This document shows, piece by piece, positions 699-61,535 of a stretch of 64,000 nucleotides of DNA. Within the stretch, counting starts at the first letter, position 1. The number at the start of each line of letters is the position of its first letter. Source of the stretch: Chloroflexota bacterium (GTDB taxonomy: Bacteria; Chloroflexota; Dehalococcoidia; Tepidiformales; Tepidiformaceae). The position numbers and the translations under genes were made by a program. The notes beneath the pieces are model-generated. The model was not told the origin of the DNA. It did no database searches and saw nothing but the letters and a program-made list of their open reading frames with translations. The DNA lies in assembly GCA_016234445.1 (NCBI GenBank), contig JACRBT010000017.1, positions 124,001 through 188,000 of the forward strand. Reading direction: 5' to 3'.

Positions 699-752
699 CG
701 CCGTGAGCGAAGAACGCCAGCCCACCTACGAAGCACTCCAGGCGCGAATCGC
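699..752 (+). repeat. Direct repeat copy B (5' end of the kinase gene)
   Basis: Matches 139-192 at 51 of 54 positions. This copy is the functional start of the nine-GAF kinase gene (GTG at 703). The sequence just upstream of the two copies is unrelated. Confidence 0.85.
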
Positions 753-15758: not shown

Positions 15759-16721
15759 CTACGGCTGTTCGTGCCCCGCGGCGGCCGGCTGGAAGAGGTA
15801 GGCGCGCCAGCCGATCCAGTCCAGCGGGTGGCGGTCGACGCGCTCCTGGAGCCATTCCAGCGAAGCCAGGTGGCAGAGGCGCACCGCCTCGTCGTCCGCC
15901 CCGGTGACCGGTAGCGGCGCCCCGATCTCGACTACGGGCACGCGTGCCGAGCCTACCGTGAAGACGGGCAGGAGCACGGCGCCGGTGCTCGCCGCCAATT
16001 CCACCGGGCCGCCGGGGAGCACGATGATGCCACCGAGGAACGGGAACTTCGCGAGGCGCGAGGCCGTGTTCGTCACGGTTATCGAAACCACGCGGTTTTC
16101 GCGGAGGAGCGCCTGGAGGCGGCGCAGCGGGCCAACCGTCCTGGCCGCGTCGATCACGACCCGCTCCGCGAGGAACCGGTTTTCGGCGCGTCGCAAGAAC
16201 GGGTTGGCGACGCGCATGCCAAACGGGAAGCGGGAGAAGCCGTGCGCTGGACGGGTCAGGTGCGCGAGCGGCAAGCCCGCTTCGAACAGCGCCTGCTTCA
16301 CGGAGACGCTGCTCCCGAGGCAGGGATGCACCCAGAGGATCACCCCGCGGCCGGCATCCAACCCGGCCCGGACGTGTTCGATGCCCCGCACGCTCACCCT
16401 GCGCCGCCAGCGCGGGAACAACGCACCACCAAGGACCAGCAGCCGCTGATGGAGCATCCGGGTCTCGGACAGGCGCAAGGCCGCGCCGGGGTTGCCGCGG
16501 GCCAGCCCGGCGAGGATGGGCCTGGGGATCAGCGCCTCCATTTGCCGGCGGTAGCTCGACCCCCGCCGCATGAGGATGGCCGCCAGGACACGGCAGCCCC
16601 ACAGCGCGACCCGCCGCGGCACGAAGATCAGGGGCAGGAGCAGCACCTGGATCCCAAGTTCTCCCCATTCCCACCCGGTTGGGAGCGGGACGCGGTCCCG
16701 AAAGCTCCTAAGCGAGCCCAA
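15759..16721 (-). CDS. LpxL/HtrB-like lysophospholipid acyltransferase family protein
   Basis: 320 residues. The N-terminus carries a hydrophobic segment (LGIQVLLLPLIFVPRRVALWGCRVLAAIL). The body has the arrangement of the LPLAT superfamily branch that includes LpxL and actinobacterial PIM acyltransferases: GVILWVHPCLGSSV at the catalytic block, then VSITVTNTASRLAKFPFLGG and IVLPGGPVELAASTGAVLLPVFTV. The catalytic block normally reads HxxxxD or HxxxxE; here His is followed by PCLGS, with no acid at the expected place, so activity is in doubt. Likely acylates an envelope glycolipid or is a degenerate relative. Overlaps the acyl-CoA synthetase gene end by 14 bp. Confidence 0.75.
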   Translation of the reverse strand: MGSLRSFRDRVPLPTGWEWGELGIQVLLLPLIFVPRRVALWGCRVLAAILMRRGSSYRRQMEALIPRPILAGLARGNPGAALRLSETRMLHQRLLVLGGALFPRWRRRVSVRGIEHVRAGLDAGRGVILWVHPCLGSSVSVKQALFEAGLPLAHLTRPAHGFSRFPFGMRVANPFLRRAENRFLAERVVIDAARTVGPLRRLQALLRENRVVSITVTNTASRLAKFPFLGGIIVLPGGPVELAASTGAVLLPVFTVGSARVPVVEIGAPLPVTGADDEAVRLCHLASLEWLQERVDRHPLDWIGWRAYLFQPAAAGHEQP

Positions 16722-18195: not shown

Positions 18196-18273
18196 CGGAG
18201 CACACCACCCCGGTGGAAGCGTAGTCTCGGCGCCCTGAACGATCCACGGTTCGCGACGGCTGGAGGGAGTCGA

Positions 18274-18279
18274 TATGCT
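18274..18279 (+). promoter_or_regulatory. Possible -10 of a leaderless deacetylase mRNA
   Basis: TATGCT followed by exactly 6 nt and the GTG start at 18286, the same geometry as at the three antitoxin genes. A GGAGGGAG at 18262-18269 lies 16 nt from the GTG, too far for a good ribosome site, which favours the leaderless reading. Confidence 0.35.
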
Positions 18280-18285
18280 CTGGTC

Positions 18286-19080
18286 GTGTCGCACGCGCCC
18301 GGGTTCCTGGGATCCTATGCCCGCAAAGTCCGTGACCAGCGCTGGCGGGTTGGCCGCTGGCGGCTACGGGCAGAGCGGGCGGTTCTCCCGCGACTTCGCA
18401 AACCCGGGCCTCGCCCTTCCGGACGCGTGCTTTCGTATCACTCGACGGGAACGCCGGCGTGGGGCGTCAACGACGTTTCCCCGGCGCGTTTCGTTGAACA
18501 GCTCGAGCTTGCGGCCCGGCTCGGCTATCGGTTTGTCCCCGCCGCGGGCGTCGCTGCGGGCGCTGCGGGCCCGCGCGACCTCGCCGTCACCTTCGACGAC
18601 GGCCTCCGGAGCATCCTCGCGGTCGTCCCCTTCCTCGAAAGCCGGGACATCTCCTTCACCGTCTTCGCCGTCGCCGGCTGGGCCTCGGAGCCCGGCGACA
18701 GCTTCCTCTCCTGGGACGACCTCGGCCGCCTTTCCGCCGCCGGGGCCTCCATCGGCAGCCATTCGATGACCCATGCCAACTTCCGCGAACTCGACGAGGG
18801 CCAGCGCCGGGCCGAGCTGGAGCAGTCCCGCGCCGCCATTGCGGATCACCTCGGCGCCGCCCCCGGGCTCTTCGCGATCCCCTTCGGCCGCGCCCGCGAC
18901 TGGGACGCCGGGTGCACCGCCCTCGCCCGCGAGGCCGGCTACGAGGCCGTCTTCGCCCAGTCCGAGGACCGCCGCCCGCCCGGGACGACCGGACGCTCGT
19001 TCATCACCAGCTTCGATGGGCCGCGGCAGTTCCGTGCGGTCCTCGAGGGCCGCTTCGACCGCTGGGAAGAGTGGTTCTGA
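18286..19080 (+). CDS. Polysaccharide deacetylase (NodB homology)
   Basis: 264 residues. Carbohydrate esterase family 4 fold: motif 1 LAVTFDDGLRS (the two Asp are base and metal ligand), FTVFAVAGW, motif 2 GSHSMTHANF (two metal-binding His), and a later FAIPFGRARDWD segment. Such enzymes remove N- or O-acetyl groups from glycans. No signal peptide, so the enzyme may act in the cytoplasm on lipid-linked precursors. Followed directly by a GT2 gene (ATG overlapping the TGA), so this pair is an operon for glycan synthesis or modification. Confidence 0.9.
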   Translation: MSHAPGFLGSYARKVRDQRWRVGRWRLRAERAVLPRLRKPGPRPSGRVLSYHSTGTPAWGVNDVSPARFVEQLELAARLGYRFVPAAGVAAGAAGPRDLAVTFDDGLRSILAVVPFLESRDISFTVFAVAGWASEPGDSFLSWDDLGRLSAAGASIGSHSMTHANFRELDEGQRRAELEQSRAAIADHLGAAPGLFAIPFGRARDWDAGCTALAREAGYEAVFAQSEDRRPPGTTGRSFITSFDGPRQFRAVLEGRFDRWEEWF

Positions 19081-20060
19081 TGGCGGAACAGGGGCAGCCG
19101 CCCGCGCTCTCGGTCCTCGTCCTCAACCACAATTACGGCCGCTTCCTGGGAGAGTGCCTCGACTCCATCCTCGCGCAGTCTTTCGGGGACTACGAGGTCA
19201 TCGTCCTCGACGACGCTTCGAGCGACGACTCGGCCGCGGTCCTCGGCGCCTACGAACGTGACCCGCGTGTCCGGACTGTCCGGCACGACGTGAACCGCGG
19301 ATTCACGGCATCGCTGGTGGAAGGGACCGAGGCACTTTCGCAGGGGGAGTTCCTGGCGGTCATCTCCGCCGACGATTTCGCCATCGACCACGACGCCTTC
19401 GCCCTCCAGGTCGCCCGGTTGCGCGAGGACGCCACGCTCGCCGCCTGCATCTGTGCGTACACGAAAGTCGGCCCCGGCCACGAGCGCAGCGTGCGTAGCC
19501 CCCTCGCCGGCGGCGGCGTGATCGCCGGCCATGCCCTCGTTCGCCGCCAGCTCAGCGACCGCGAATTCGGCATCCTCCATTCCGGGACCGTCATCCGCGC
19601 CGAGGCCTACCGCCGGGCGGGCGGCTACCGTCGCGACCTGAGCAACTACGTCGACTTGGCGATGTGGATCGCCCTCGGGTACGTGGGCCCGGTGGCCTGC
19701 ATCGACCGGCCGCTCTACGGCTACCGCGTCCATGCCAACCAGTTTTCGGGGAGTGCCGCCCGGCGAAGGCAGGTGCTTCGTGAAGGCGTGGGCGTCCTCC
19801 GGGAGGCTGCGGCCGCGGCTGCCGCCGCCGGGATCGACGTGAGCGGCATGGCTGTGCTGCGCGCGCGCATCGCCGATCTCGCCCTTGCCGACGCTTTCGC
19901 CGGGAGACGGATCCGCGGCCTCCAGCGCTGTGCTGACGCGCTCTTCCTTGAACCGCTGCCAGCCCTCACCTCGCCGGGCTGGTGGATGGCGCTCGCCCGT
20001 TCAGTAGCCGGGGGCCGAGGCTGGGCCATCCTCGCCGCGGTCCGCCGCCGCCTCTCCTGA
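19080..20060 (+). CDS. Family 2 glycosyltransferase
   Basis: 326 residues, GT-A fold: LSVLVLNHNYGRFLGECLDSILAQS, YEVIVLDDASSDDS (nucleotide binding) and the metal-binding AVISADDFAID in place of DxD. An acceptor region GYRRDLSNYVDLAMWIALG follows and a basic C-terminus. It transfers a sugar from a nucleotide donor to a growing glycan; donor not predictable. It starts within the stop codon of the deacetylase gene. Its last 60 bp overlap the 3' end of the convergent GNAT gene. Confidence 0.9.
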   Translation: MAEQGQPPALSVLVLNHNYGRFLGECLDSILAQSFGDYEVIVLDDASSDDSAAVLGAYERDPRVRTVRHDVNRGFTASLVEGTEALSQGEFLAVISADDFAIDHDAFALQVARLREDATLAACICAYTKVGPGHERSVRSPLAGGGVIAGHALVRRQLSDREFGILHSGTVIRAEAYRRAGGYRRDLSNYVDLAMWIALGYVGPVACIDRPLYGYRVHANQFSGSAARRRQVLREGVGVLREAAAAAAAAGIDVSGMAVLRARIADLALADAFAGRRIRGLQRCADALFLEPLPALTSPGWWMALARSVAGGRGWAILAAVRRRLS

Positions 20061-44945: not shown

Positions 44946-47354
44946 TTGCGCGCATTGGCCGGGGTACGCGTCCTCGACTGCACGGGTTTCGTTGCCGGGC
45001 CCTACTGTGCCCGGCTCCTCGCCGGGCTCGGCGCCGACGTCATCAAGATAGAGCCGCCGGGGGGCGACCCGGCACGGTCCCACGGGCCGTTCCCGGGGAA
45101 CCGGCCCCACCCCGAGAAGAGCGCGATCTTCGTCCACCTGAACACGAACAAGCGGGGCGCCGTCCTTGACCTGGGGACGGAAGATGGCCGCGCTGCCTTT
45201 CGCGACCTCGCAAGTGGCGCTCACGTCGTCATCGAGGATCGGTCGCCCGGCGAGCTTGCCGCGCTTGGCCTGGGATACGACGTGCTCGCGAAGCACAATC
45301 CCGGGCTGGTGATGACCTCGATCACCGCGTTCGGTCAGGACGGCCCCTATCGTGACTACCGCGCCCACCACATCAACCTCTTCAACGCCACGGAAGGGAG
45401 CACGGCGGCGCGCGCCCGGGACGGCCGGCCGACGATGGCTGGCGGCTTCCTCGGCGAGTACGACGCCGGCCTGAACGCCGGGGTGGCGACGCTCGCGGCA
45501 CTCCACGCCAGCCGGCTCAGCGGCCGGGGCCAGCACGTCGACATTTCGAGGTTCGAATCGCTGGCGGCCCTCCAGCGCGTCGACATTTCGATCCAGCGGA
45601 ACAAGGACCAGGCGGCCGGTTACCGAAACGTCTCCCGGATCGGCGGGCTCGTGCCCTGCAAGGACGGCCACGTGGTCATCATCGCCGTCGAGGACCACCA
45701 GTGGACGTCGCTCGCCGAACTCATCGGCCGGCCGGAGTGGACGACGGACCCGCGCTTCACCAGCCGCGAAGAGCGGCCCCGCCACGCGCCGGAGATCCAG
45801 CGTGCCATCCTCGACTGGGCGAAGCAGCACCCCAAGGACGAGGTCTACCACCTCGGCCAGGCGGCGAAGGTCCCCGTGGGGGCGGTGCTGAACGTCCCCG
45901 AACTGCTGGCTTCGCCCCAGTTGCGCGCGCGGGACTTCTTCCACGAGGTCGACCACCCTGACGCGGGCGCACACCTCCAGCCGGGGATGGGATTCCTGCT
46001 GTCGAAGTCCCCGTGGCGGGCAGAACGCCCGGCGCCCCGGCTGGGGGAGCACAACGGGGAGGTGCTGGGGCAGCGACCCTGGGGGCATGCTTCAACCGCT
46101 GCTCCCGCCGGACAAAGCCTCCCGGGGGGCACGGCGTCTCACCCCCGCACGAAGGCGCTCGAGGGCGTCCGCGTCGTCGACTTCACCTGGGCCTGGGCGG
46201 GCGCCTACGCGACCTTCCAGCTCGGTTTGCTCGGCGCCGAGGTCATCAAGGTCGAGAGCCTGAAGCGGCTCGACCTGTCGCGGACGCAGTCGCTCACCAC
46301 CGGCCAGCGCTTCGCGGGATACGACTCGTCGACGATCTTCAACGACCTCAACGCCAACAAGCGCAGCCTCCAGCTGGACCTGAGCCGGCCCGAAGCCGTC
46401 GCCATCGCCAAACGGCTCGTGGCGGAGAGCGACGTGGTCGCCCAGAACATGCGGCCCGGGGTGATGGAGCGGCTGGGGCTTGGCTACGAAGACCTGCGCG
46501 CGGTGAAGCCGGACATCATCATGCTCTCGTCGTCGGCGCTCGGCTCAACCGGCCCCGAACGGACGTACTCGGGGTACGCCCCCGTGTTCTCGGCACTCGG
46601 CGGCCTGGCCTACATCACCGGGCAGGCTGGCGGTCCACCGGTCCCTCTCTACGGCTCCGTCGACCTTCGTTCGGCCACGATGAGCGCCTTCGCCGTGATG
46701 GCCGCCCTCCACCAGCGCGACGCGACGGGCGAAGGGCAGCACATCGACCTGTCGTCGGTGGAGTCGGTGGCCTCCCTGATCGGCCACGTTTTCGCCGAGT
46801 ACCAGTTGACGGGGAAGATGCCGCGCCGCCGCGGGAACGACGACTTCCACATGGCGCCGCACAACACCTACCCCTGCGCCGGCGGGGAGTGGGTGACGAT
46901 TGCGGTCGAGACCGATGCCGAGTGGCAGTCGTTCTGCGCGGCGCTGGGGAATCCCGGGTGGACGAACGACGCGCGCTTCGCCGAGGCACGTAGCCGGTGG
47001 CGGAACCGCCGGACGCTCGACAGGCATGTCGAGGGATGGACGAGGGAGCGCGGCGCGGCGGAGATCACGACCCTTCTCCAGCGAGCAGGAGTGGCGGCCC
47101 TCCCCGGTTGGGGACCGGAAGGACTCGCGCACGACGCCCATCTCGAAGCGCGCGGCTTCTTCCAGCCGGTGGTACACCCCGTCCTGGGCCGCCGGGAAGT
47201 CGTGGGGGCGCCATGGACGCTCCCGGGGACGCCGCCCGCCATCGAGCGGCCCGCCCCCCTGCTCGGTGAACACAACGGTTACGTGCTAGCGGACCTCCTC
47301 GGCATGTCGCCGGCCGAGGTCGCGTCGCTCCAGGAGCAGGGGATCGTCCACTGA
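44946..47354 (+). CDS. Fused tandem type III (CaiB/BaiF) CoA-transferase
   Basis: 802 residues from TTG at 44946, GGGAGGGA 5 nt upstream. Two homologous CaiB/BaiF domains, about 1-385 and 400-800. Domain 1: LAGVRVLDCTGFVAGPYCARLLAGLGADVIKIEPPGGD, FVHLNTNKRGAVLDLG, MTSITAFGQDGPYRDY and the likely Asp of GEYDAGLNAG. Domain 2: LEGVRVVDFTWAWAGAYATFQLGLLGAEVIKVES, FNDLNANKRSLQLDLS, YGSVDLRSATMSAFA. Type III enzymes move CoA between acids via an aspartyl-CoA adduct and form interlocked dimers; fusing two copies could give an internal dimer with two different sites. Not in an obvious operon; the thiolase gene is convergent. Confidence 0.92.
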   Translation: MRALAGVRVLDCTGFVAGPYCARLLAGLGADVIKIEPPGGDPARSHGPFPGNRPHPEKSAIFVHLNTNKRGAVLDLGTEDGRAAFRDLASGAHVVIEDRSPGELAALGLGYDVLAKHNPGLVMTSITAFGQDGPYRDYRAHHINLFNATEGSTAARARDGRPTMAGGFLGEYDAGLNAGVATLAALHASRLSGRGQHVDISRFESLAALQRVDISIQRNKDQAAGYRNVSRIGGLVPCKDGHVVIIAVEDHQWTSLAELIGRPEWTTDPRFTSREERPRHAPEIQRAILDWAKQHPKDEVYHLGQAAKVPVGAVLNVPELLASPQLRARDFFHEVDHPDAGAHLQPGMGFLLSKSPWRAERPAPRLGEHNGEVLGQRPWGHASTAAPAGQSLPGGTASHPRTKALEGVRVVDFTWAWAGAYATFQLGLLGAEVIKVESLKRLDLSRTQSLTTGQRFAGYDSSTIFNDLNANKRSLQLDLSRPEAVAIAKRLVAESDVVAQNMRPGVMERLGLGYEDLRAVKPDIIMLSSSALGSTGPERTYSGYAPVFSALGGLAYITGQAGGPPVPLYGSVDLRSATMSAFAVMAALHQRDATGEGQHIDLSSVESVASLIGHVFAEYQLTGKMPRRRGNDDFHMAPHNTYPCAGGEWVTIAVETDAEWQSFCAALGNPGWTNDARFAEARSRWRNRRTLDRHVEGWTRERGAAEITTLLQRAGVAALPGWGPEGLAHDAHLEARGFFQPVVHPVLGRREVVGAPWTLPGTPPAIERPAPLLGEHNGYVLADLLGMSPAEVASLQEQGIVH

Positions 47355-50252: not shown

Positions 50253-51353
50253 TCAACCGGGAGTCCCGCGGGCGTCGTCACGGCCCGACCTGCGGTTTCG
50301 CCAGAGGACGAAGACGAGCGCCCAGGTCATGAGCGCAAGCGCGGCCACGAGGGCGAGGATGAGGAGCGAGGCGCCGCCGCTGAAGTCCTGGATTGTCTGG
50401 ACGGCGAAGTTGTCGTCGCTGCCTTCATCGCGGGCGCCTCTGACGGCGGCCTCGCGCGCACAACCGTTCACCTTCTCTTCGGGGATGGTGAGCTGGGTGT
50501 GGCGTTCGACCTCGACGCCGTCGGACTGGCGGAGGGTGAGCCGCGCGACGTACCGGCCGGGTGGCGGGTCCTGGGGAGAGTGGACGCGGATCACCGTGTC
50601 GAGGGTGGGGACCACGCTCCCGAGTTCGACGCTGCGTTCGAAGACCGGTTGCCCGGGTTCTGTTTCGAGCCGGAAGCGGCCGGTGCCCTTCGACAGGATG
50701 GTGCCCTGGTTGAGCACGGAGATTTCGAAGTAACGGCTGCCCGTCTCCTGGTTGAAGCAGAACTCGCCGAGGGCCAGCTTCTCTACCGTCTCCCCCGGCA
50801 CGCGGACGACGACCGCCACCCCCGCACGTTCGACGATCACGGTGTTGACGTTGCCGGCGGCGCCGGGCCTGGGCGCGGCTTCCACGACGATGCCTGCGAC
50901 GTGGTCGCCGGGGGTCGCGGCTGCCGGCGCGGCGACCGTTATCGAGACGACTTCTTGCTGGCCGGGCCCCACCGTGACCTGGCCGGCGCTGACGGAAACC
51001 CAGCCGGCGGCGCCGGTGGGAGATTCGCCGCCGTTGGCGAACCCGGTGCCGCCCCCGCTGGCGGTGATCGCGTCGGCAGCGTAGACGCGGAGGGTGACCG
51101 CGGTAGCCCCTTCGTTGGTCACGATCGCCTGGCCGGTCGCCTTCGCTCCGGGCGCCAGGGTGTAGGTGAAATACCCTCCCGTGCCGGTTGCCCCGGGGCC
51201 GCCGGGCATGGGCTGGATGCCGAATGAGATGCCGGCCTGGGCGGCGGTGTGGCCTGGCGCGGCGAGGAGCGTCCCCGCGAGGACGAGGGCGCCGAGGAGG
51301 ATGGGCGCAAGCCGCCTGATCCGCGTGGGTGAGAGCGTCAGTGGTCGTCTCAT
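50253..51353 (-). CDS. DUF916-like WxL-interacting-type surface protein
   Basis: 366 residues. Signal peptide (LAPILLGALVLAGTLLAAPGHTAAQA). Residues 30-150: FGIQPMPGG...GYFTYTLAPGAKATGQAIVTNEGATAVTLRVYAADAITASGG and WVSVSAGQVTVGPGQQEVVSITVAAPAAATPGDHVAGIVV, i.e. the Ig-like fold of DUF916, the peptidoglycan-binding domain of WxL-interacting proteins (WxLIP). A second Ig-like domain follows (about 170-300). One membrane helix near 330-352 (LLILALVAALALMTWALVFVLW) with an RRNRR-type basic tail inside. In Bacillota these proteins hold WxL proteins on the surface. It is the third gene of a minus-strand operon after two cupredoxin/WxL-like genes. Confidence 0.75.
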   Translation of the reverse strand: MRRPLTLSPTRIRRLAPILLGALVLAGTLLAAPGHTAAQAGISFGIQPMPGGPGATGTGGYFTYTLAPGAKATGQAIVTNEGATAVTLRVYAADAITASGGGTGFANGGESPTGAAGWVSVSAGQVTVGPGQQEVVSITVAAPAAATPGDHVAGIVVEAAPRPGAAGNVNTVIVERAGVAVVVRVPGETVEKLALGEFCFNQETGSRYFEISVLNQGTILSKGTGRFRLETEPGQPVFERSVELGSVVPTLDTVIRVHSPQDPPPGRYVARLTLRQSDGVEVERHTQLTIPEEKVNGCAREAAVRGARDEGSDDNFAVQTIQDFSGGASLLILALVAALALMTWALVFVLWRNRRSGRDDARGTPG

Positions 51354-51407
51354 GGTGTTCCGCCTCCTGGTCGCCGGGCGTCTCCGGCGGCCGAATTGCT
51401 CACCGGG

Positions 51408-52310
51408 CTACGGCCCGGAAACGATGGTGACAACAAGGCTCGCTGTGTAGGTGCCTTCCTTCACGTTCGCCGGGACGGTCAGCCGGAATTCGGGCGCGAG
51501 GTCATAGGTCCCCATCCCGGTGCCTGTGGCGGCACGCACCAGGGTCGTCGCGCTCGCCTGGCTGAGGGACTGGTAGCTGGTCACCAGGCTCTGGGGGGCC
51601 GTGTTCCCGCTCACGGTGGTGATGCGGTTCTGGAGCAGGCGGACCTTCAGGTTCGAAGCCGGAATCGTCGAGGAACCGGCCGAGAGCTCGCCGCCGGAAA
51701 TGGTGATGCGCCAGCCGCTGCCGCTCCCGGTCGCGTCGCTGGCACGCCAGGTCACGGGCTGGGCGTCGACATCCTGGCTGACTCCCGTGATGACCACCGG
51801 GGCAAAGGACACCGCAGCCGTCAGCAACGAGAGCCCGGACGGCGAACCCGCGGGAAGGACCGTGACCTTGCCGACCATCTTGTTGCCGGACGCGATGTTG
51901 GCGTCGATGTTCGCGGGGTCGGCGTCGCCGGGGCCGGCGTGCTCGTCGCAGTAGTAGGTGTAGGTCCCGGCGGTCGAGAAGGTGAAGGAGTAGGTCTCGC
52001 CGGCGGAGTTGATGCCGCCCTTCGGGCCGGAACTCAGGCTCGGATAGTTGTAGCCGTGGACATCGTGGGCGCCGTTGAACCACTCCCAGCGAACCGTGTC
52101 GCCGGCGGTGATGGTAATCGCGGCGGCGTTGAACCGCTGGGCCGCAGTGCCGCTGGGAGATTGGCCCACCTTGACCGTCGTCGTTGCCGCGCTGCCGGGG
52201 GCGAATGCCGCGAACTGGAGGAGGATGACGCTCGCCAGTGCGGCCACGACCGCCACGACCGTCCGACGGAAGTGGCTGCGAGGGTGCCCGGGGGAGGCCT
52301 TGGCGTCCAT
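51408..52310 (-). CDS. Secreted cupredoxin with C-terminal WxL-like domain
   Basis: 300 residues. Signal peptide (TVVAVVAALASVILLQFAAFAPGSAA). Residues about 44-150: plastocyanin-like domain with HDVHGYNY (His ligand), YTYYCDEHAGPG (Cys and His ligands) and a Met in NKMVG (type 1 copper). Residues about 165-300: a second beta domain, FAPVVITGVSQDVDAQPVTW..., DATGSGSGWRITI, ending YTASLVVTIVSGP. The GxGW[x][IV]T[IV] block and the Y-T-A-S-L...P end match the layout of the WxL domain of Bacillota (WxL motif near the start and 'YTATLTWTL...P' at the end), although the second Trp is Val here. Encoded with another such protein and a WxLIP-type protein. Confidence 0.75.
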   Translation of the reverse strand: MDAKASPGHPRSHFRRTVVAVVAALASVILLQFAAFAPGSAATTTVKVGQSPSGTAAQRFNAAAITITAGDTVRWEWFNGAHDVHGYNYPSLSSGPKGGINSAGETYSFTFSTAGTYTYYCDEHAGPGDADPANIDANIASGNKMVGKVTVLPAGSPSGLSLLTAAVSFAPVVITGVSQDVDAQPVTWRASDATGSGSGWRITISGGELSAGSSTIPASNLKVRLLQNRITTVSGNTAPQSLVTSYQSLSQASATTLVRAATGTGMGTYDLAPEFRLTVPANVKEGTYTASLVVTIVSGP

Positions 52311-52396
52311 GTCGTCAGCTGCTCCGGGAGTGCCGTGACCCGCCCCGGGATGCCGGGGCGGGCCATGGTCTCCGTTCTAGGGGATGGTCCCGGTCC

Positions 52397-53611
52397 TCAC
52401 GGGCCGGAAGTGATGGTGACGGCGATGCTCGCGGTGTAGCTGCCTGGGGCGGCGCTCGCCGGGACGGTGAGCTGGAAGTCGGGGGAGTACTCGTAGCTCC
52501 CCATGCCCGCACCGCCGGCGGACGCCTGGAGGATCTTCAGGGCGGTGCCAAGCGGGGCGTAGCTGGAGTTCGGGGTCGAGGGAGCCGCGCTCCCGGACAC
52601 CGTGGTGACCGCTGAGAGTCGGGCCTTGAAGTCCTGGCCGGCCATCGGGCCGCCGGTGGAGGAGAACCCGGTCGACTGGACGGTGACGTTCCAGCCGGCG
52701 CCGGTGCCGCGCGCGTCGACGGCGTTCCATGGGGTGGCCGGGGCCGCGGCCACGACCTGGGCGAGGCCGGTGAGGGTGATGCCCGGCAGAGTGATGTTGC
52801 TGGTGGAGTTGCTCAGGCCGCCGCCGGTGATCGAGATCGTGGCGGTGACTGCTCCAGCCGGGAGGCCGGTGACGTCGAGACCGCCGCTGAGGGCGACCCA
52901 TGTGCTTACGTTCCCGGCGGCGTCTTCCGACTGCACTTCCACCGTGTGGACGCCGAGGCTGAGAGCGCCCGTGGGGATCGAGGCCGAAGCCGTGGTGCTG
53001 ACGACCGACATGGCGACGGAAGCGCCGCCGTCGATCCGGTAACGGGCCTGGGTGACGCCGATGTTGTCGCCAACGGTGGCGCTCAGGGCGACCCCGGCGG
53101 CGCCGGCCGTGGGGTTCGGGCTGGCGGCTACGCCACTCACGGTCGGGTTGGTGGTGTCAGGAGCGGGGGGGTTGACGGTGATCCTGCCCACCATCGTCGT
53201 GTTGAACGACATCGCGGCGGCTTCCGCGGGGTCCGAATGGAGGCTGCAGTAGTAAAGGTAGGTGCCGGCCGTGGGGAAAGTCCGGCTCCAGGTGTTGGTA
53301 CCACTGCTCCGCAGGAGCGGAGACGCCCAGGCGCCTGATTGCTCAGTGACGTCGTGCTGCCTCCCGTCCGGCGCACTGTTCCAGGTGACTGTGTCGCCGG
53401 TCGTGATGGTGATGTCGGCGGGGTTATACCGGTCGACGCCGTTGGTGCCACCACTATTTTGGCCGACGACGACGGTGATAGTGGCGGCGCCGGCCGTGGT
53501 CTGCCCGCGGAACATGCCGATCCCGGCGACGATGACGAGCAGGGGCAGCGCCAACAGCGGCAGCCAGGCTGCGGTCCCCCTCTTGATTCGGCGTTGATGG
53601 TGCGTAGACAT
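52397..53611 (-). CDS. Secreted cupredoxin/Ig-like protein with C-terminal WxL-like domain
   Basis: 404 residues from ATG at 53611, with AAGGAAG 7 nt upstream. Signal peptide (TAAWLPLLALPLLVIVAGIGMFRGQTTAGA). Residues about 42-150: cupredoxin with QHDVTEQ, YLYYCSLHSDP and NTTMVG as His, Cys, His and Met ligands. About 155-255: Ig-like domain (TNPTVSGVAASPNP..GVALSATVGDNIGVTQARYRIDGG). About 262-404: the same WxL-like domain as its neighbour (ITLTGLAQVV, DARGTGAGWNVTV, ending YTASIAVTITSGP). First gene of the operon; expression probably depends on the palindrome at 53865-53878. Confidence 0.75.
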   Translation of the reverse strand: MSTHHQRRIKRGTAAWLPLLALPLLVIVAGIGMFRGQTTAGAATITVVVGQNSGGTNGVDRYNPADITITTGDTVTWNSAPDGRQHDVTEQSGAWASPLLRSSGTNTWSRTFPTAGTYLYYCSLHSDPAEAAAMSFNTTMVGRITVNPPAPDTTNPTVSGVAASPNPTAGAAGVALSATVGDNIGVTQARYRIDGGASVAMSVVSTTASASIPTGALSLGVHTVEVQSEDAAGNVSTWVALSGGLDVTGLPAGAVTATISITGGGLSNSTSNITLPGITLTGLAQVVAAAPATPWNAVDARGTGAGWNVTVQSTGFSSTGGPMAGQDFKARLSAVTTVSGSAAPSTPNSSYAPLGTALKILQASAGGAGMGSYEYSPDFQLTVPASAAPGSYTASIAVTITSGP

Positions 53612-54078
53612 CGGATTCTTCCTTCTCTCGTTCCGGTTGGTCACCGGATTACCGGTCGTTTTGGGCACGGCGAAGCTACGGCCGCCTGGTAGAGCCTCGT
53701 CTGCGGTTGCTGGCCTGGGATTGCGGGGTTCACCCCTTGCCGTTGTTGGTGATCGTTCTCCTCCGCCTCCCGGTCCTGGCCGGGGTAGGGGCTCCGTAAT
53801 GGTTTCCCCCACATCCTTTACCTCACAAACGCCCCCGGAAACCGACCAACTGCGCCAAATAGGTGCGACTTAGGTCGCGGTCTACCGGGCCCTGCCGGGC
53901 CAGCCGAATCGGGCTCACGTGTGGGCTATGCCCAAAGACGGGGTCCCGCGACCGGCCGGGTCACCGAGCCGATAGCCCTGGTGTTCTCCGTGGACGAATC
54001 CGCCACTACCCGGCGGTGACGTACCGGAAGTAGCATGCTGGGCGATCCCGGCGCGAAATCTCACGGAGGGAGGGGCTG
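53612..54078. other. Long intergenic region between divergent genes, with possible leader RNA
   Basis: 467 bp without a gene. On the minus strand the 250 bp before the cupredoxin/WxL-like gene can pair with itself: CCGG..TAAT..CCGG (53644-53655) and a GGCGG...CCGCC-type arm near 53680-53695. There is a longer pairing between a GGCAAGG and a CCGTGCC. This could be a structured 5' leader or simply GC-rich DNA; I do not recognise a known riboswitch. A TAGCAT at 54031-54036 could be a -10 for the plus-strand kinase gene. Confidence 0.35.
53865..53878. promoter_or_regulatory. Candidate operator GCGAC-N4-GTCGC (site 1)
   Basis: Inverted repeat GCGACTTAGGTCGC, about 254 bp upstream of the start of the cupredoxin/WxL-like operon and 200 bp upstream of the two-component kinase gene. 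A near-identical, better palindrome lies upstream of the five-cupredoxin gene (56728-56743). NarL/LuxR-type response regulators bind such repeats. Confidence 0.45.
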
Positions 54079-55551
54079 ATGGTCACAGGCGCTGAACCGC
54101 GGCGACGGCTGCCGGACCTCGCCGGCCTGCCCGGTGGCCGGTGGCTGGTGCGCGCGCTTGGCCCGCTCGGGCGGCTGAGCCTCGCCCAACGTTTCGCCCT
54201 TGCCTGCCTCGCGGTGCTGCTCACGGGGGCGCTCGTCATCGGCAGATGGGTTTCGCAGGAGATTCAGTCGGGCGTGATCCACCGGACTTCGGCGATCACC
54301 GCGTTGTACGTCGACAGCTTCGTGACGCCCCAACTTGGGGGACTCGAGACGGGTGATGGGATCAGCGACTACGACGCTGCCACCCTGACCAGCCTGATGC
54401 ACAACACGCCGCTCGGCGAAAAGATCGTGTCCTTCAAGGTCTGGTCGCCCGACGGAGAGGTGCTGTTCGCGCTCGAGCCGCTCGAGGTAGGCAAGCGATA
54501 CCCGATCTCTGGCGAACTGGAGGTCGCCCTTGACGGCCAGATATCCTCCCATCTCTCCAACCTGGACGAGGTCGAAAACCAGCGCGAGCGCGAACAACAC
54601 GAGCGCCTTGTGGAGACCTACATGCCGGTCCGTTCAGGCAACGGCCAGGTCATGGCCGTCGTCGAGTTCTACCAGCTCCCTGACGACCTGGTGGCCGCGA
54701 TCCGGAGTTCGCAGAGGACCGGCTGGGGGATCGTGGGCGCCAGCACCGTCGTCATGTATGCCCTCCTGGTCGGCCTCGTGACCGGCGCCAGCCGGACCAT
54801 CACCCGCCAGAACCGCAGCCTCCAGGCCGCGGTCGACCAGCGGACCGCCCTCGAACAGCGCATCCGTGCCCTCAACGGGCGCCTGCGGCGGGCGGCCGGC
54901 GCCAAGGCCCAGACGGACGAGCAGGTGCTCCAGCGGATCACGCAGGACCTCCACGACGGCCCCGCCCAGGACCTCGCGCTCGCGCTGCTCCGGTTCGAAG
55001 AAGTGCGCCGGCCGGATGCCACCGCGGAGGAGCAGCAGTCGCTCGCCACCATCCAGTTCGCCGTCGAGCATGCCCTCACGGAGGTCCGCAGCATCAGCAC
55101 GGGCCTCCATCTGCCCCAGATCGACGGGATGGGCTGGAAGGCGACGGTCGAAAAGGCCGCGTCCGAACACCAGCGCCGGACCTCGGCGGTGGTCCACGTC
55201 GAGGCGGAGGAAGTCCCCGGCGCCCCGAGCCCGGCGCAACGGATCGCGGCCTACCGGATCGTCCACGAGGCGCTGAGCAACGCGTCGCGGCATTCGGGCG
55301 CCCAGGAAGCCTGGGTACGGCTGAAGGCGGAGGATGGAAGTGCGGTCATCGCCATCGAGGACCACGGTTCCGGGTTCAACGTCGGCCGCGAACGCGCCTC
55401 CCAGGGGCGGAGGGCGCGGCTTGGCCTCCAGGGCATGCGCGAACGGGCGGAGCTGCTCGGCGGCGCCTTCGCGGTGAGGTCGGCTCCGGGGCGGGGGACT
55501 ACCGTCGAAGTCCGGATCCCGCTGACCCAGGGAGATGACCATGTCCGCTGA
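54079..55551 (+). CDS. NarL-type sensor histidine kinase
   Basis: 490 residues, membrane-bound. Ribosome site GGAGGGA upstream. Helix 1 about 36-58 (FALACLAVLLTGALVIGRWV), an extracytoplasmic sensor of about 155 residues (no PAS or CACHE motif recognised) and helix 2 about 215-237 (GIVGASTVVMYALLVGLVTGA). HisKA_3 domain with phospho-His292 in DLHDGPAQDLALALLRF, and an HATPase with EALSNASRHSGA, DHGSGF and GLQGMRERAELLGG. This is the NarX/DesK family, whose partner is nearly always a NarL-type regulator, which is the next gene (17-bp overlap). Likely controls the adjacent surface-cupredoxin genes. Confidence 0.92.
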   Translation: MVTGAEPRRRLPDLAGLPGGRWLVRALGPLGRLSLAQRFALACLAVLLTGALVIGRWVSQEIQSGVIHRTSAITALYVDSFVTPQLGGLETGDGISDYDAATLTSLMHNTPLGEKIVSFKVWSPDGEVLFALEPLEVGKRYPISGELEVALDGQISSHLSNLDEVENQREREQHERLVETYMPVRSGNGQVMAVVEFYQLPDDLVAAIRSSQRTGWGIVGASTVVMYALLVGLVTGASRTITRQNRSLQAAVDQRTALEQRIRALNGRLRRAAGAKAQTDEQVLQRITQDLHDGPAQDLALALLRFEEVRRPDATAEEQQSLATIQFAVEHALTEVRSISTGLHLPQIDGMGWKATVEKAASEHQRRTSAVVHVEAEEVPGAPSPAQRIAAYRIVHEALSNASRHSGAQEAWVRLKAEDGSAVIAIEDHGSGFNVGRERASQGRRARLGLQGMRERAELLGGAFAVRSAPGRGTTVEVRIPLTQGDDHVR

Positions 55552-56188
55552 TCTCCGGGTCCTCGTTGTCGACGATCACCCGCTCTTCCGCGAAGGAGTG
55601 GTGGCCACGCTCACCCGCGAACCGGGGTTCGAGGTGGTTGGCGAGGCCGAGACGATCGCGGAGGCGCTGGTGCGGGTGCGGTTGACGCGGCCCGACGTCG
55701 TCCTGCTGGACGTGGCCCTCCCCGACGGGAGCGGGATCGAGGCCGTGGCCCCCATCCTGGCGGAGCTTCCGGCAACCAGGATCGCGGTCCTCACGAGTTC
55801 GGACGACAGCGACACCGTCCTGGCGGCGCTCCGGGCGGGGGCCGCCGGCTACCTCCTGAAAGGCACGGGGAGCACGGAGCTGATCGCGGCGCTGCGGGCC
55901 ATCTGCCGCGGCGAGAGTTACACCTCGCCGAAGGCGGCCTCGCGCCTGCTGGCGGAAGCGGCCCACCCGCACCCGGTCCCGGGGGACGACCTGAGCCCCC
56001 GCGAGCGCACGGTGCTGGAGATGCTCGGCCAGGGCCTGACGAACCGCGAAATCGCCCAGAAACTCTACCTGAGCGAGAAGACGGTGAAGCGCCACGTCAC
56101 GGTCGTGATGCAGAAGCTGGGTGTCCGCAACCGGGTCGAGGCCGCCCTCCTCGCTTCGCGTTCCCGTCGCCCGGGGCAGCCGCGCTAG
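55535..56188 (+). CDS. NarL/LuxR-family response regulator
   Basis: 217 residues. Receiver with VVDDHPLFREG (acidic pocket), phospho-Asp59 in VVLLDVALPDGSG and VLTSSDDSDTV. HTH domain at the C-terminus: LSPRERTVLEMLGQGLTNREIAQKLYLSEKTVKRHVTVVMQKLGVRNRVEA. Start at 55535 (MTMSADL), or the ATG two codons later. It overlaps the kinase gene by 17 bp, so both come from one transcript. The probable targets are the palindromes at 53865-53878 and 56728-56743 (inference). Confidence 0.93.
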   Translation: MTMSADLRVLVVDDHPLFREGVVATLTREPGFEVVGEAETIAEALVRVRLTRPDVVLLDVALPDGSGIEAVAPILAELPATRIAVLTSSDDSDTVLAALRAGAAGYLLKGTGSTELIAALRAICRGESYTSPKAASRLLAEAAHPHPVPGDDLSPRERTVLEMLGQGLTNREIAQKLYLSEKTVKRHVTVVMQKLGVRNRVEAALLASRSRRPGQPR

Positions 56189-56224
56189 CCACAAGCCCGC
56201 CCCGATCGCCGCCGAAGAATGAGA

Positions 56225-56274
56225 CCATCGTCGCGCCATCGTCGCGACCAACGGGGTTCGCAATCGGGGTTCGC
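56225..56274 (+). repeat. Short direct repeats upstream of the LuxR-type gene
   Basis: CCATCGTCGCG twice in tandem (56225-56235 and 56236-56246), then CGGGGTTCGC twice (56252-56261 and 56265-56274). They are in the 157-bp gap between the response regulator and the small HTH gene and could be binding sites. Alternatively chance repeats in GC-rich DNA. Confidence 0.4.
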
Positions 56275-56345
56275 GGGGCCAACCATGACCCCAGCGCCCA
56301 TGGCCCTCTGCAGCAAGAAGGCCCCGGCGCCCGGGGTGGACGACC

Positions 56346-56654
56346 ATGAGAGCCGCCGACGAAGTCCAGTCGAACAGGCCGGATAGCACCGAAGCCGCCG
56401 TCGCCAGCCGAAAACGGGCACCGCACGGCGGTCGCAGCGGCCGGGGGTTCGGCCTGACCCCGAGAGAGCGCGACGTGTTCGAGCTGGTCGGCCTGGCGCT
56501 GACCAACCGCGAGATTGCGCGCCGCCTCAGCCTTAGCGAGAAGACCGTGAAGAGCCACCTCACCGCGGTCATGCGGAAGCTTGGCGCGCACAACCGCGTG
56601 GAGGCTGCGCTCGCCGCCGCCCGCGAGCGGGGCCCACGAACTGTCCGGGACTGA
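56346..56654 (+). CDS. Small LuxR-type HTH protein
   Basis: 102 residues. No receiver domain. The LuxR HTH occupies about 35-95: FGLTPRERDVFELVGLALTNREIARRLSLSEKTVKSHLTAVMRKLGAHNRVEAALAAA. The first 30 residues are basic and low in structure. It is very similar to the HTH of the response regulator just upstream, so it may have come from its duplication and compete for, or share, the same DNA sites. Confidence 0.85.
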   Translation: MRAADEVQSNRPDSTEAAVASRKRAPHGGRSGRGFGLTPRERDVFELVGLALTNREIARRLSLSEKTVKSHLTAVMRKLGAHNRVEAALAAARERGPRTVRD

Positions 56655-56727
56655 CCCACGCATGGCCGCGGCCTGCCCCGATGCCGTCGCGATCCCGCTC
56701 ATTCGCGCCCACGGCAGATTCGAAGAT

Positions 56728-56743
56728 TGCGACCAAGGTCGCA
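56728..56743. promoter_or_regulatory. Candidate operator TGCGACC-AA-GGTCGCA (site 2)
   Basis: Perfect 7-bp inverted repeat, 112 bp upstream of the five-cupredoxin gene. A second, weaker copy (CGACCTTGGTGG) follows at 56752-56763. The same GCGAC...GTCGC element is upstream of the cupredoxin/WxL-like operon at 53865-53878, the other half of the surface system. Confidence 0.5.
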
Positions 56744-56854
56744 CATGCTCCACGACCTTGGTGGGTTCGCCGGGGCGGCGCGAAGTTTGAGGATGGCGAG
56801 TGGGAGACCAGCAGAGCCGGCTGGGAATGCCACTTAAATCCAGGAGCAATCGGG

Positions 56855-59035
56855 ATGCCGAGCGCGTTCATCACTCCACCACCGGCCCGGGCCCGGCGCC
56901 TCCCGCTGCACCTGTCCGGCCTCGCCATCGCCGCGTGCGCGACCGTGCTCATTGGCGCGGGGCTCCTTGGCGGCGTCACGGCCGAAGCAGCGACGTCCAC
57001 GGTGCAGGTCGGACAAAAGCCCGACGGCACCAGCGGCAACCGCTACAACCCGGCTTCCGTGACGATCAACCTCGGCGACACGGTCAGCTTCGTTCGATTC
57101 GCGGGGACGCACGACGTCGCCTCGGCGGTGGTCCCGTCGGGCGGCAGCGCCTTCGCCTCGGCGTCGCCGATGCCCACCGGCGGGACCTTCGCCGTTACCC
57201 CGGCGGCGGCCGGCACCTACACGTACTACTGCACGATCCATTCGGACCCGACCGAAGCGACGCTGGCGAACATCGACGCGAACATCGCCGCCGGGAGCAT
57301 GGTCGGCAAGATCGTCGTGAACGCGCCGGCGGCCACCGCCACGCCAACCTCCGCCCCGGCCACGGCCACCCCAACAGCAACCACAGCCGGACCGACCGCC
57401 ACGCCCACGACCGGGGGTGGGGGCGCGACCGCGACGCCAACCCGGACTTCGACACCCACGTCCACGCCGACCGTTGGCGGCGGGGCGACCGCTACCCCAA
57501 CGCGGACCGCGACGCGGACCCCCACCCGGGGCAGCGGCACCGCGACGCCAACCCTGCCGCCGGGGGCGACCCCAACACCGCCGCCCCCGGCGGCAGGCGA
57601 CGTCCAGATCGTCGACTTCGCCTTCGCGCCGGCGTCGCTTTCGGTGGCGCCGGGGACCTCGGTGCGATGGGTCAACGCGGGCGCGAAACCCCACACGGTG
57701 ACGGCCCGGGACGGCTCCTTCGACAGCGGCTTCATGGCCAAGGGCGACGCTTACAGCCGCACCTTCCAGTCGGCGGGCACGTACGAGTATTTCTGCGACT
57801 TCCACCCGGAGATGGTGGCGACCATCACGGTCGCGGGCGGTGGATCGCCCCCCGGTGGCGCGACGCCGACGACGGCCCCGGGTGCAACGGCGACGGCGAC
57901 GGCGACCGCCACCGCCACGGCCACGGCGGTGCCGCCACCGCCTCCCGCCCCCGGCGACGTGAACGTCGTGGACTTCGACTATTCGCCGCGCCTGCTCACG
58001 GTCGCTCCGGGCACGAATGTGAGATTCCTGAACGCCGGGCTCGCACCTCACACGGTGACCGCGAACGACGGCTCTTTCGACAGCGGCTTCATGGCGAAGG
58101 GAGACGCCTACCGGCACACGTTCTCCACGCCCGGCACCTACGACTACTTCTGCGTGATTCACCCCAACATGACCGGGACGGTGCGCGTGGCCGACGGTCT
58201 TAGCCCGGCCCCGACCGCAGCCCCCCGGCCCACGGCGACGCTGCCTCCGCCTTCGCCTCCGCCACCTCCCGCGACCGCGCCGGGCGACGTCCAGGTGCTG
58301 GACTTCGACTACGGTCCGCGGACCATCTCCGTCGCGGCCGGTTCGCACGTGCGCTTCGTGAACGTGGGGATCGCGCCCCACACGGTCACCGCCCGCGACG
58401 GCTCCTTTGACAGCGGCTTCATGAGCACCGGCGACGCCTTCACGCACACGTTCTCCAGTGCCGGTACCTATGAATACTTCTGTGTCATCCACCCGGCCAT
58501 GACCGGGACCGTCCGGGTCGCGGGGGCCGGCGGCGGAGTCCCGGCGGCCGCGACCGCCGTTGCCACCTCGACCCCGACGGCGGCTGCGCCCGCTTCCTCC
58601 TCGCCCGGAGGGACGGCCGTCACCATGGTCGACTTCGCCTTCGCCCCAGAGACGATAGCCATCCGCACCGGCGGGAGCATTACCTGGGAAAACGCAGGGG
58701 TCGCGCCCCACACCGTGACGGACAGGGGAGGGAAGTTCGACAGCGGCTTCGTGAAGAAGGGCGAGTCATACACCCGCCAATTCGAGTCGGCAGGCACATT
58801 CGACTACTACTGCACCCTGCACCCCCAGATGGTGGGGAAGGTGGTCGTCAGCGATGCTGCTGCTCCCACGGCTGCCCCCTCGGCCGCGCCCCAATCCGGC
58901 TCCACGGCCTCGCCAGCCGGGGGCGCGGACTCGACGTTCGGGGAGGCGTGGATGCTCGTCTGGGGGCTGGTGGCGCTGGTTGGCGTCGTCGCTCTCCCGA
59001 CCGTGCTGATCACCTCGCGGGGGCGTGCCTCGTGA
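56855..59035 (+). CDS. Membrane-anchored protein with five cupredoxin domains
   Basis: 726 residues from ATG at 56855 (AGGAG upstream). Signal peptide (SGLAIAACATVLIGAGLLGGVTAEA). Cupredoxin 1 (about 45-150) resembles the copper domains of the cupredoxin/WxL-like proteins (THDVASAV, YTYYCTIHSDP, GSMVGK). Then a Thr/Pro-rich stalk with TATPT repeats and four shorter cupredoxins (about 250-330, 365-445, 475-555, 590-665). Each short one has P-H-T-V-T, F-D-S-G-F and Y-[ED]-Y-F-C-x2-H-P-x-M or close variants (type 1 His, Cys, His, Met copper site), joined by Ala/Thr/Pro linkers. One membrane helix at 695-720 anchors the C-terminus. No sorting signal. A chain of blue-copper sites suggests electron transfer across the cell wall (inference). 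Confidence 0.88.
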   Translation: MPSAFITPPPARARRLPLHLSGLAIAACATVLIGAGLLGGVTAEAATSTVQVGQKPDGTSGNRYNPASVTINLGDTVSFVRFAGTHDVASAVVPSGGSAFASASPMPTGGTFAVTPAAAGTYTYYCTIHSDPTEATLANIDANIAAGSMVGKIVVNAPAATATPTSAPATATPTATTAGPTATPTTGGGGATATPTRTSTPTSTPTVGGGATATPTRTATRTPTRGSGTATPTLPPGATPTPPPPAAGDVQIVDFAFAPASLSVAPGTSVRWVNAGAKPHTVTARDGSFDSGFMAKGDAYSRTFQSAGTYEYFCDFHPEMVATITVAGGGSPPGGATPTTAPGATATATATATATATAVPPPPPAPGDVNVVDFDYSPRLLTVAPGTNVRFLNAGLAPHTVTANDGSFDSGFMAKGDAYRHTFSTPGTYDYFCVIHPNMTGTVRVADGLSPAPTAAPRPTATLPPPSPPPPPATAPGDVQVLDFDYGPRTISVAAGSHVRFVNVGIAPHTVTARDGSFDSGFMSTGDAFTHTFSSAGTYEYFCVIHPAMTGTVRVAGAGGGVPAAATAVATSTPTAAAPASSSPGGTAVTMVDFAFAPETIAIRTGGSITWENAGVAPHTVTDRGGKFDSGFVKKGESYTRQFESAGTFDYYCTLHPQMVGKVVVSDAAAPTAAPSAAPQSGSTASPAGGADSTFGEAWMLVWGLVALVGVVALPTVLITSRGRAS

Positions 59036-59057
59036 GGACCGGGGAAGGAAGTCTGCG

Positions 59058-59513
59058 ATGAAACCCACACTCCTTGTTTGGCTCGCCGCGGTGGCAAGCC
59101 TGCCCTTGCTGGCCTCGTGCACAGGGGATACGCCGAAGGTGGCCGACGCGGTCAACGCCTCTGCACCGGAGCCGGCGGCCCAACCCACGCGCCTGACCGT
59201 GGCCCTGAGCGAATGGGACGTGAAGCCGGACCAGGCGAGGATCCCCGCGGGCGGGCTGACGATGATCGCCACGAACGAGGGCGCACAGCTCCATGACCTC
59301 GTGATTGTGCGAACCGAGGTCGAGGTCATGGCCCTGCCGGTCGCCGGGGGCACTGTGGACGAGTCAAAGATCACCATCATCGGGCGCTTCCGGGAGTTCA
59401 AGTCGGGCGAAAAGGAGAAGCAGTTCGCCCTCGCGGCCGGCCGGTACCTGCTGATCTGCAACCTCCCGGGCCACTACCAGTTGGGGATGGTGACGCCACT
59501 CTCGGTCGAGTGA
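59058..59513 (+). CDS. Cupredoxin-like lipoprotein
   Basis: 151 residues from ATG at 59058. Lipobox LLASC (Cys about 19). Single cupredoxin domain, residues 50-150: LTVALSEWDVKPDQARIPAGGLTMIATNEG, His in QLHDLVIVR, Cys, His and Met in LLICNLPGHYQLGM. The domain matches the sulfocyanin/auracyanin-like type with the ligand set His-Cys-His-Met. Its stop overlaps a 54-bp direct repeat that is copied at 60283 (see findings). It probably passes electrons to or from the five-cupredoxin protein. Confidence 0.85.
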   Translation: MKPTLLVWLAAVASLPLLASCTGDTPKVADAVNASAPEPAAQPTRLTVALSEWDVKPDQARIPAGGLTMIATNEGAQLHDLVIVRTEVEVMALPVAGGTVDESKITIIGRFREFKSGEKEKQFALAAGRYLLICNLPGHYQLGMVTPLSVE

Positions 59514-60395: not shown

Positions 60396-61535
60396 CTAGC
60401 GGCGGGGGTGGAGGGCCACGGCGCCGAGGGCGATGGTCCCGAGCCCGATCAGGATGAAGATCGCCAGGTTGAGCCCAGCCCCCGAGGAGGTGTGGCCGGA
60501 GCCTGTTTCACCAACGATCGGCGTGGGTGGGCGTGGGGTGGCTGCGGCTGCGGCCGTCTGGCCAGCGGCCGCGGTCATCTCGGCCGGGGCGAGCGTGCTG
60601 GTCGGGGTCGGCGAAGGTGGAGGCGAAGTGGGGGTCGCCGTCGGTGTGATGACCGGCTCCGGCTCCGTCGTCGCCTGGGGGGTGCTGGTCGGCGTGGATG
60701 TGGGCAGCGGCGTCGAAGTCGGGGGCTGGGTCCCGGTCGGCGTGGCCGTGGCGGTGGCAGTCGCAGTTGCGGTAGCCGTCGCGGTGGCCGTGGGGGTTGC
60801 GGTGTTGGTCGGCGTGGCTGTGGCGGTTGCGGTGGGAGTGGGGGTGTTGGTTGGGGTGTTCGTGGGGGTGTTGGTCGGGGTGTTGGTGGGAGTGTTCGTG
60901 GGGGTGTTGGTCGGCGTGTTCGTCGGGGTATTGGTCGGCGTGTTCGTCGGGGTGGTGGTTGAGGTAGGTGTTGGCGTGGGCGTCACGGGCCGGTCGAAGG
61001 CGCAGACGTGGACGGTCCCATTGTTGTTGTGGTCCTGGTCGGTGAAGTAGGCCGCGAGCACCTGCGCCGACGTCGCGCGCTGGCCTTCGGGGCGCGGGCC
61101 GTTGAGCTCGCACTGGTCGTTGCCCCCGCCCGGGGTGTCGTTCCCGCCGTGCGCCGGGATGTAGATGTCGAGCAGCTCCCATTCGAGCGAGGACTGCTCG
61201 GTGATGACGTAGTCGTCCTGGTCCACGAGGGTGGAGTCGTTGTTGTGCACGGTGTAGTCAGTCGTGCCGTCGACGAGGAAGGTCCAGTTCTTCGGCCCCT
61301 CGTGCTGCCAACCGGAGCCGCCCTGGGGGTTCGGCTTCGGTGTGTACTTGTGAATGTGGATGTGGCCCGTGTCTTCGTCCGGCTGCTTCGCCTCGCAGAC
61401 GTCGGGCCCGCCGCAGTCATCCGAGAGCGGCCCTCCAATAAATAGCCAGGCGATGACCGCAGCGACCGCCGCCACGACAGCGACGGCGACTATGGTCTGG
61501 GTACGGGTCAGTCGGCGAGGGCGCAAGGTACTCAT
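60396..61535 (-). CDS. Membrane-anchored Thr/Pro/Ala-rich surface protein
   Basis: 379 residues. N-terminal hydrophobic segment ([22 protein letters not shown]) without a clear cleavage site. Residues 40-190: globular domain [58 protein letters not shown], then [10 protein letters not shown] and VHVCAF (four Cys). Residues 195-340: low complexity, PTN[TP] and ATATP repeats (about 10 tandem NTPT units), then a C-terminal membrane helix ([21 protein letters not shown]) and HPRR. So it is anchored at one or both ends, with an extended stalk. Divergent from the sigma-factor gene. Function unknown. Confidence 0.8.
60745..60960 (-). repeat. Tandem repeats encoding NTPT and ATATP stalk
   Basis: 12-bp units (minus-strand reading AAC ACC CCC ACC and variants) repeated about ten times at 60845-60955. 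Next to it, toward lower coordinates, is a block of 6-bp Ala-Thr units. Such repeats expand and contract by slippage, so stalk length probably varies between strains. Confidence 0.7.

Follow-up and report, generated by a model that had tools for sequence, protein, structure and literature searches.

A DosR-like two-component system and a conserved operator suggest one envelope blue-copper regulon with WxL-type display in a Chloroflexota genome

Genes A to H, at positions 50253 to 59513 of the window (the whole stretch of 64,000 nucleotides that was analyzed, on contig C5 of G000, the 3.54-Mb genome, 97% complete, of an uncultured Chloroflexota bacterium), are best filed as a WxL-type display cluster with blue-copper cargo and DosR-like two-component control. 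We read the cluster as one envelope regulon, in which DosR-like control of cupredoxins placed at several depths would serve electron transfer, and we give this reading a probability of about 0.55. The membrane kinase D, with its extracytoplasmic PAS-type sensor, would phosphorylate the DosR-like, NarL-family regulator E, which would bind CGACYWARGTCG sites in a divergent region (D-E on one side, C-B-A on the other) and in front of the G-H pair. The type-1 copper proteins would then lie at several depths, with the lipoprotein H at the membrane, the five sites of G on a membrane-anchored flexible stalk and two wall-bound cupredoxin-WxL proteins (B and C) held by the membrane-anchored A. Electrons might move between membrane and wall, the cupredoxins acting as electron carriers that serve respiratory enzymes or a surface donor or acceptor. 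Electron transfer is the most likely role of the cupredoxins. The features of the cluster, in window coordinates, are as follows.

A, 50253 to 51353, minus strand: WxL-interacting protein (WxLIP/DUF916) with a signal peptide and a C-terminal transmembrane (TM) helix
B, 51408 to 52310, minus strand: 300 amino acids; cupredoxin at about 51930-52139, then a C-terminal WxL-like domain
C, 52397 to 53611, minus strand: 404 amino acids; cupredoxin at about 53234-53437, Ig-like spacer, C-terminal WxL domain
Operator 1, 53864 to 53879, no strand: TGCGACTTAGGTCGCG, in the divergent C/D intergenic region
D, 54079 to 55551, plus strand: HisKA_3/HATPase histidine kinase; two TM helices, PAS-type sensor on the extracytoplasmic side
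E, 55535 to 56188, plus strand: NarL/DosR-type response regulator (Response_reg-GerE) with a SEKTVK recognition helix
F, 56346 to 56654, plus strand: GerE only; paralogous to the DNA-binding part of E, with no receiver
Operator 2, 56728 to 56743, no strand: TGCGACCAAGGTCGCA, an inverted repeat of 7-2-7 with no mismatch, 120 bp upstream of G
G, 56855 to 59035, plus strand: five-cupredoxin protein with T/P/A-rich linkers and a C-terminal TM helix
Cupredoxin domains of G, plus strand: at about 57041-57244, 57602-57832, 57968-58189, 58301-58519 and 58622-58849
H, 59058 to 59513, plus strand: lipoprotein with a SoxE/sulfocyanin-like cupredoxin (lipobox LASC), 22 bp downstream of G

Profile matches in Pfam and NCBIfam agree with the gene content and coordinates of the original prediction; the starts of C, G and H are most likely ATG 53611, ATG 56855 and ATG 59058, replacing those of the longest open reading frames. 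Transcription runs in the order C (53611-52397), B (52310-51408), A (51353-50253) on the minus strand, and D, E, F, G, H follow one another on the plus strand. The flanking genes are unrelated and encode CoA transferases, a thiolase, a phosphate transporter, a sigma factor and a GGDEF protein. No oxidase or other obvious redox partner lies within the cluster, and scans for sigma-70 promoters and terminators gave no signal above chance.

The count of eight blue-copper domains made in the original prediction holds, since the sequences of all eight contain the complete His-Cys-His-Met set of type-1 ligands, and the sets are also complete in homologues of the cluster's cupredoxins; the sites are presumably loaded with copper. 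The ligand pattern consists of an N-terminal His and a C-x2-H...M loop, with H having a C-x4-H-x4-M-type loop instead. Canonical domains read C-x2-H-x2-M. In three of the eight, namely those of B and C and the first one in G, the His-Met loop is unusually long (x8 to x21), and the G010 and L074 homologues, from two relatives described below, show this type as well. For C, the shortest pattern match gives x8, but the alignment instead sets the Met at the KMVGK position (M140), like that of the other long-loop domains. The copper site of this variant is putative, because it has no close solved structure. By Pfam, G contains five Copper-bind stretches (151 bits), and H has a weak match to SoxE (E=0.002, below the cut-off). 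Copper-bind matches number 16 in the genome, 7 of them in the cluster, a tally from which H is absent because it is too divergent for that model. The cupredoxin part of C matches plastocyanin both by profile and by fold; G shares 35% identity with L074's protein of three cupredoxins, and H likewise 35% with a cupredoxin encoded next to a kinase locus of another class (L180). Fold and ligand set are those of the single-domain proteins plastocyanin, amicyanin and halocyanin, as sequence matches in PDB and NCBIfam indicate; unlike these, the domains here include five in tandem on a membrane stalk, fusions to WxL domains and the long-loop variant.

The evidence for joint control comes from the palindrome CGACYWARGTCG, which occurs between the divergent genes C and D, again in front of G, and nowhere else in the 3.5-Mb genome. 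Its two copies read TGCGACTTAGGTCGC (53864) and TGCGACCAAGGTCGC (56728), and even when one mismatch to TGCGACYWARGTCGY is allowed, these remain the only two places in G000. Because the palindrome was first spotted by eye, other genomes were then used as a test. G010 belongs to the same family but another genus ("Anaerolinea sp. PR.017," PNKC01000052 and PNKC01000026) and has TGCGACTTAAGTCGC upstream of an orthologous C-B-A operon and TGCGACCAAGGTCGT upstream of a gene for a three-cupredoxin-WxL fusion. In G244, from another family, the only exact core of the genome lies inside ATCGACCAAGGTCGAT, in the divergent region of that genome's own version of the system (locus L074, JACRBR010000354.1). 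In G065, also from another family, the sole match with one mismatch falls between the divergently oriented genes for a kinase homologue and a cupredoxin. With a core taken from the window alone, four of ten corresponding upstream regions contain it at no more than one mismatch, against 0.03 expected. Control counts put the genome-wide totals of the core at chance level, and it is the placement that departs from chance. Operator-like matches on contigs C122 and C48 of G010, C294 and C295 of G018 and C100 of G065 were discarded, as they lie inside coding regions.

The core extends beyond the class. In Chloroflexota from outside it (loci L174 to L200), the variant GACCAARGTC lies upstream of members of the kinase family, with 16 sites in 15 of 27 such upstream regions (10.7 kb) against one site in the remaining 84.6 kb of the same loci; shuffled sequences give 0.03. 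Both cluster sites and the phylum-wide sites fit GACYWARGTC, which matches the DosR-type core and is a putative binding site. The kinase sensor family is itself present across the phylum, and together with the operator it looks like a phylum-wide regulon. The divergently transcribed neighbors of these kinases are often secreted proteins, namely, cupredoxins in L177, L180 and L182, Lipoprotein_15 and YceI in L194, and DUF11 in L188. A kinase family specific for cupredoxins was rejected, since most homologues outside the class lack a cupredoxin neighbor at a distance of up to about 1.5 kb. A separate variation is seen in G018, where a kinase-regulator-cupredoxin operon (L061, 2689-2841) encodes a regulator with SENTVK, the first lysine being replaced by Asn, and the spacer between regulator and cupredoxin holds another palindrome, CTACCC-CCAT-GGGTAG; this one case hints that operator specificity and recognition helix change together.

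The closest regulatory parallel is DosR/DevR of Mycobacterium tuberculosis (PMC2275270, PMC5999986), which likewise pairs a NarL-family regulator with a HisKA_3 kinase. DosR contacts DNA through K179, K182 and N183 (PMC5999986), and the SEKTVK motif common to E-type regulators contains the equivalents of both contact lysines, K179 and K182. The DosR consensus is TTSGGGACTWWAGTCCCSAA (PMC2275270), with a GACTWWAGTC core as opposed to GACYWWRGTC here, and the outer operator bases differ. We infer that E binds the operator, and we likewise infer the direction of control. The gene F encodes a domain 66% identical to the DNA-binding domain of E over 64 residues and, being without a receiver, its product could compete for or modulate the sites of E. 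Two further differences are that the regulon here comprises envelope cupredoxins and that the DosR kinases (DevS/DosT) are cytosolic with haem-GAF domains, whereas D is a transmembrane kinase whose extracytoplasmic sensor models as a PAS domain of the WalK/CitA/DctB type, in an alignment of two sequences only. A GAF match, and with it a haem-GAF sensor, was not found in D. Given this and the extracytoplasmic PAS model, we call the system DosR-like and not DosRS.

The sensor also bears on whether the cluster serves copper defense, as in the copper-responsive variant of the original prediction. The kinase would then sense excess copper, and the cupredoxins would buffer or sequester it outside the membrane. 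The eight copper-binding domains under one regulator are in keeping with such a role, and cupredoxins such as CopI are known from copper resistance, with G and H giving weak NCBIfam matches to CopI. However, a comparison of five homologues shows no invariant Cys, His or Met in the extracytoplasmic part of D, and the PAS fold is typical of small-ligand or envelope sensors, so that direct copper sensing by D is disfavored on sequence grounds. A conserved sensor His, hinted at by three homologues, was ruled out because it is missing in L074. Moreover, a YHS/P-type ATPase-cupredoxin locus elsewhere in the same genome (L039) lacks an operator site. Cys-ligated type-1 sites are also better suited to electron transfer than to storage. 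We therefore consider copper defense unlikely. The original prediction of one system under a shared two-component regulator is supported by the operator at both regulated regions, the presence of both halves together in another family and the phylum-wide core next to the kinase family; its copper-responsive variant is weakened.

Electron transfer is favored over copper defense also because of the respiratory company that related genes keep. In G002, the neighbors of a three-cupredoxin protein are SCO1, a COX2/CuA-like protein and a cupredoxin lipoprotein; L182 combines cupredoxins with a cytochrome bd-like subunit; and G000 itself has a locus in which a cupredoxin accompanies NosZ, NosL and NosD. 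These neighbors point to respiration. In a rival reading, the cupredoxins would not carry electrons but deliver copper, loading exported cuproenzymes such as the CuA site of an oxidase or nitrous oxide reductase. In favor of delivery are the SCO1 and COX2-like neighbors in G002, as well as a heme-copper oxidase and a NosZ-NosL-NosD locus in the genome itself. The latter (L043, 6851-13762, on C5) encodes a cupredoxin, a NosZ-like propeller-cupredoxin protein, NosL, NosD and ABC genes, and is likely to serve nitrous oxide reduction with a cupredoxin partner. Yet the cluster contains no SCO, NosL or CuA protein, and complete, Cys-bearing type-1 sites and wall anchoring would be odd in a chaperone, which makes delivery a serious but distinctly improbable rival. 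Sulfocyanin, an Fe(II)-oxidizing blue copper protein of Ferroplasma (PMC8280799), offers a comparison for electron transfer, being an electron carrier outside the membrane to which the weakly SoxE-like H bears some resemblance; in contrast to that case, the present cluster lacks an oxidase and has wall-bound WxL carriers, and a role in iron oxidation is without support. Molybdopterin oxidoreductase genes near the L074 system (16120-19265) are possibly a redox partner and possibly a chance neighbor.

Genes A, B and C make up the scaffold. WxL clusters are defined by two WxL proteins and one WxLIP (PMC10599100), and C, B and A agree with this definition of at least two WxL proteins and one adjacent WxLIP. 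Gene A matches PF06030 with 36.8 bits (cut-off, 27.3) and has a PGBD match above cut-off at about 50880-51188; its C-terminal TM helix is predicted from sequence, and HBD (PF11797) is matched weakly (E=0.027) in its G010 orthologue. Against a Pfam WxL cut-off of 25 bits, C scores 27.3 and B 23.1, so that C alone passes. The first motif is present as W-x-V/I (W374 of C and W200 of B, in ORF numbering), and the second is V-T-I without Trp, so that two W-x-L motifs were not found. The loss of the second Trp motif and the single score above cut-off are the reasons for the label "WxL-like." Sequence identity to the G010 and L074 orthologues is 54% and 43%, respectively, for A and 53% in both cases for C. 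A wall target for the WxL domains is plausible because the genome encodes Mur ligases, and B and C are accordingly pictured as probably wall-bound through these domains and held by A.

Like the clusters of Enterococcus, Lactobacillus and Listeria (PMC10599100, PMC9772566), the present one has two WxL proteins with C-terminal WxL domains and one membrane-anchored WxLIP, with the residue D at W-8 and, in protein C, also the residue R at W-6. It differs from them in its cupredoxin cargo, the Trp-less second motif, the linked regulator and membrane-anchored multi-cupredoxin protein, and an environmental Chloroflexota host. Since the literature treats WxL clusters as platforms for display (PMC9772566, PMC10599100), and an ordinary WxL-WxL-WxLIP cluster without cupredoxins or linked kinase exists in the same genome (L037, 8294-10643, on C9), the cluster might be one more display cluster for adhesion or surface architecture, its cupredoxins being folded spacers or binding modules. 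Mere spacers would be expected to lose some copper ligands, but every domain and its homologues retain them all, and we hold this explanation to be highly unlikely.

The linkage of the two halves can be followed in L074. There, genes for a cupredoxin lipoprotein and for a three-cupredoxin protein that has a TM helix at its end stand next to the operator, the kinase and the regulator, and these are joined by genes for a cupredoxin-WxL protein, a further WxL protein whose N terminus differs and a WxLIP. A second family thus also has the two halves linked, in a rearranged orientation. This linkage and the common operator indicate the co-occurrence and joint regulation on which the original prediction depended. 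Strong kinase-sensor matches were found in 5 of 393 class genomes (G000, G018, G065, G235 and G244), and in all five a cupredoxin gene adjoins the kinase. Full-length cupredoxin-WxL proteins were detected only in G000, G010 and G244. In G010 the WxL operon keeps the order C-B-A and has the operator, and no kinase homologue was found in this assembly, which is 77% complete and whose contig stops 26 bp past the operator. The same genome encodes, at 12852-14843 of L035 (contig C26), a single protein in which three cupredoxins are combined with a WxL domain at the C terminus, and its gene has the operator upstream. A scan of 84,980 species with two short peptide patterns, which may miss other variants, returned 67 loci that encode relatives of the query. 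Most of these are ordinary WxL/WxLIP clusters, and L074 and G010 were the only ones with cupredoxin-WxL fusions. That the cluster joins two unrelated modules without common function, as the WxL half of G010 without a detected kinase and multi-cupredoxin/lipoprotein pairs without WxL genes (L038 and L173) might suggest, is barely credible in view of the operator common to both halves and their co-occurrence in another family. A membrane-protein fragment in L173 (8919-9341), considered as oxidase subunit I, was dropped for want of a Pfam match.

Returning to electron transfer by envelope cupredoxins, a more specific form of it would be a haem-free relay across the cell wall, in which the copper sites on the stalk of G pass electrons to or from the WxL-tethered wall cupredoxins under DosR-like control; we regard this as rather doubtful. 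A continuous conductive chain to outside acceptors, as proposed in the original prediction, is possible and is consistent with the placement and redox-site content of the proteins. The suggestion that the system may be new applies to the combination, the parts being known already. In the open-access literature, we found no earlier description of cupredoxins with WxL domains, including cupredoxin cargo on a WxL scaffold, of tandem cupredoxins or of Chloroflexi with DosR; a paper pairing DUF916 with metalloproteins was set aside, as it deals with other proteins. WxL domains have been described as a display platform of mostly gut-associated Firmicutes, and blue-copper cargo in an environmental Chloroflexota suggests that redox proteins, too, can be displayed in this way. 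The conserved operator offers a practical entry to a two-component family that spans the phylum and has no assigned function that we could find, and through it copper-based electron transfer across the cell wall becomes a directly testable idea.

Three other genes in the window are worth recording. Just past H, on the minus strand (60396-61535), lies a gene whose product resembles G in build, having a long PT-repeat stalk and a TM helix at the C terminus, but contains no cupredoxins. On the plus strand, positions 703-6432 encode a 1909-amino-acid histidine kinase with eight tandem GAF-domain matches, and positions 44955-47354 encode a single protein that fuses two CoA-transferase family III domains.
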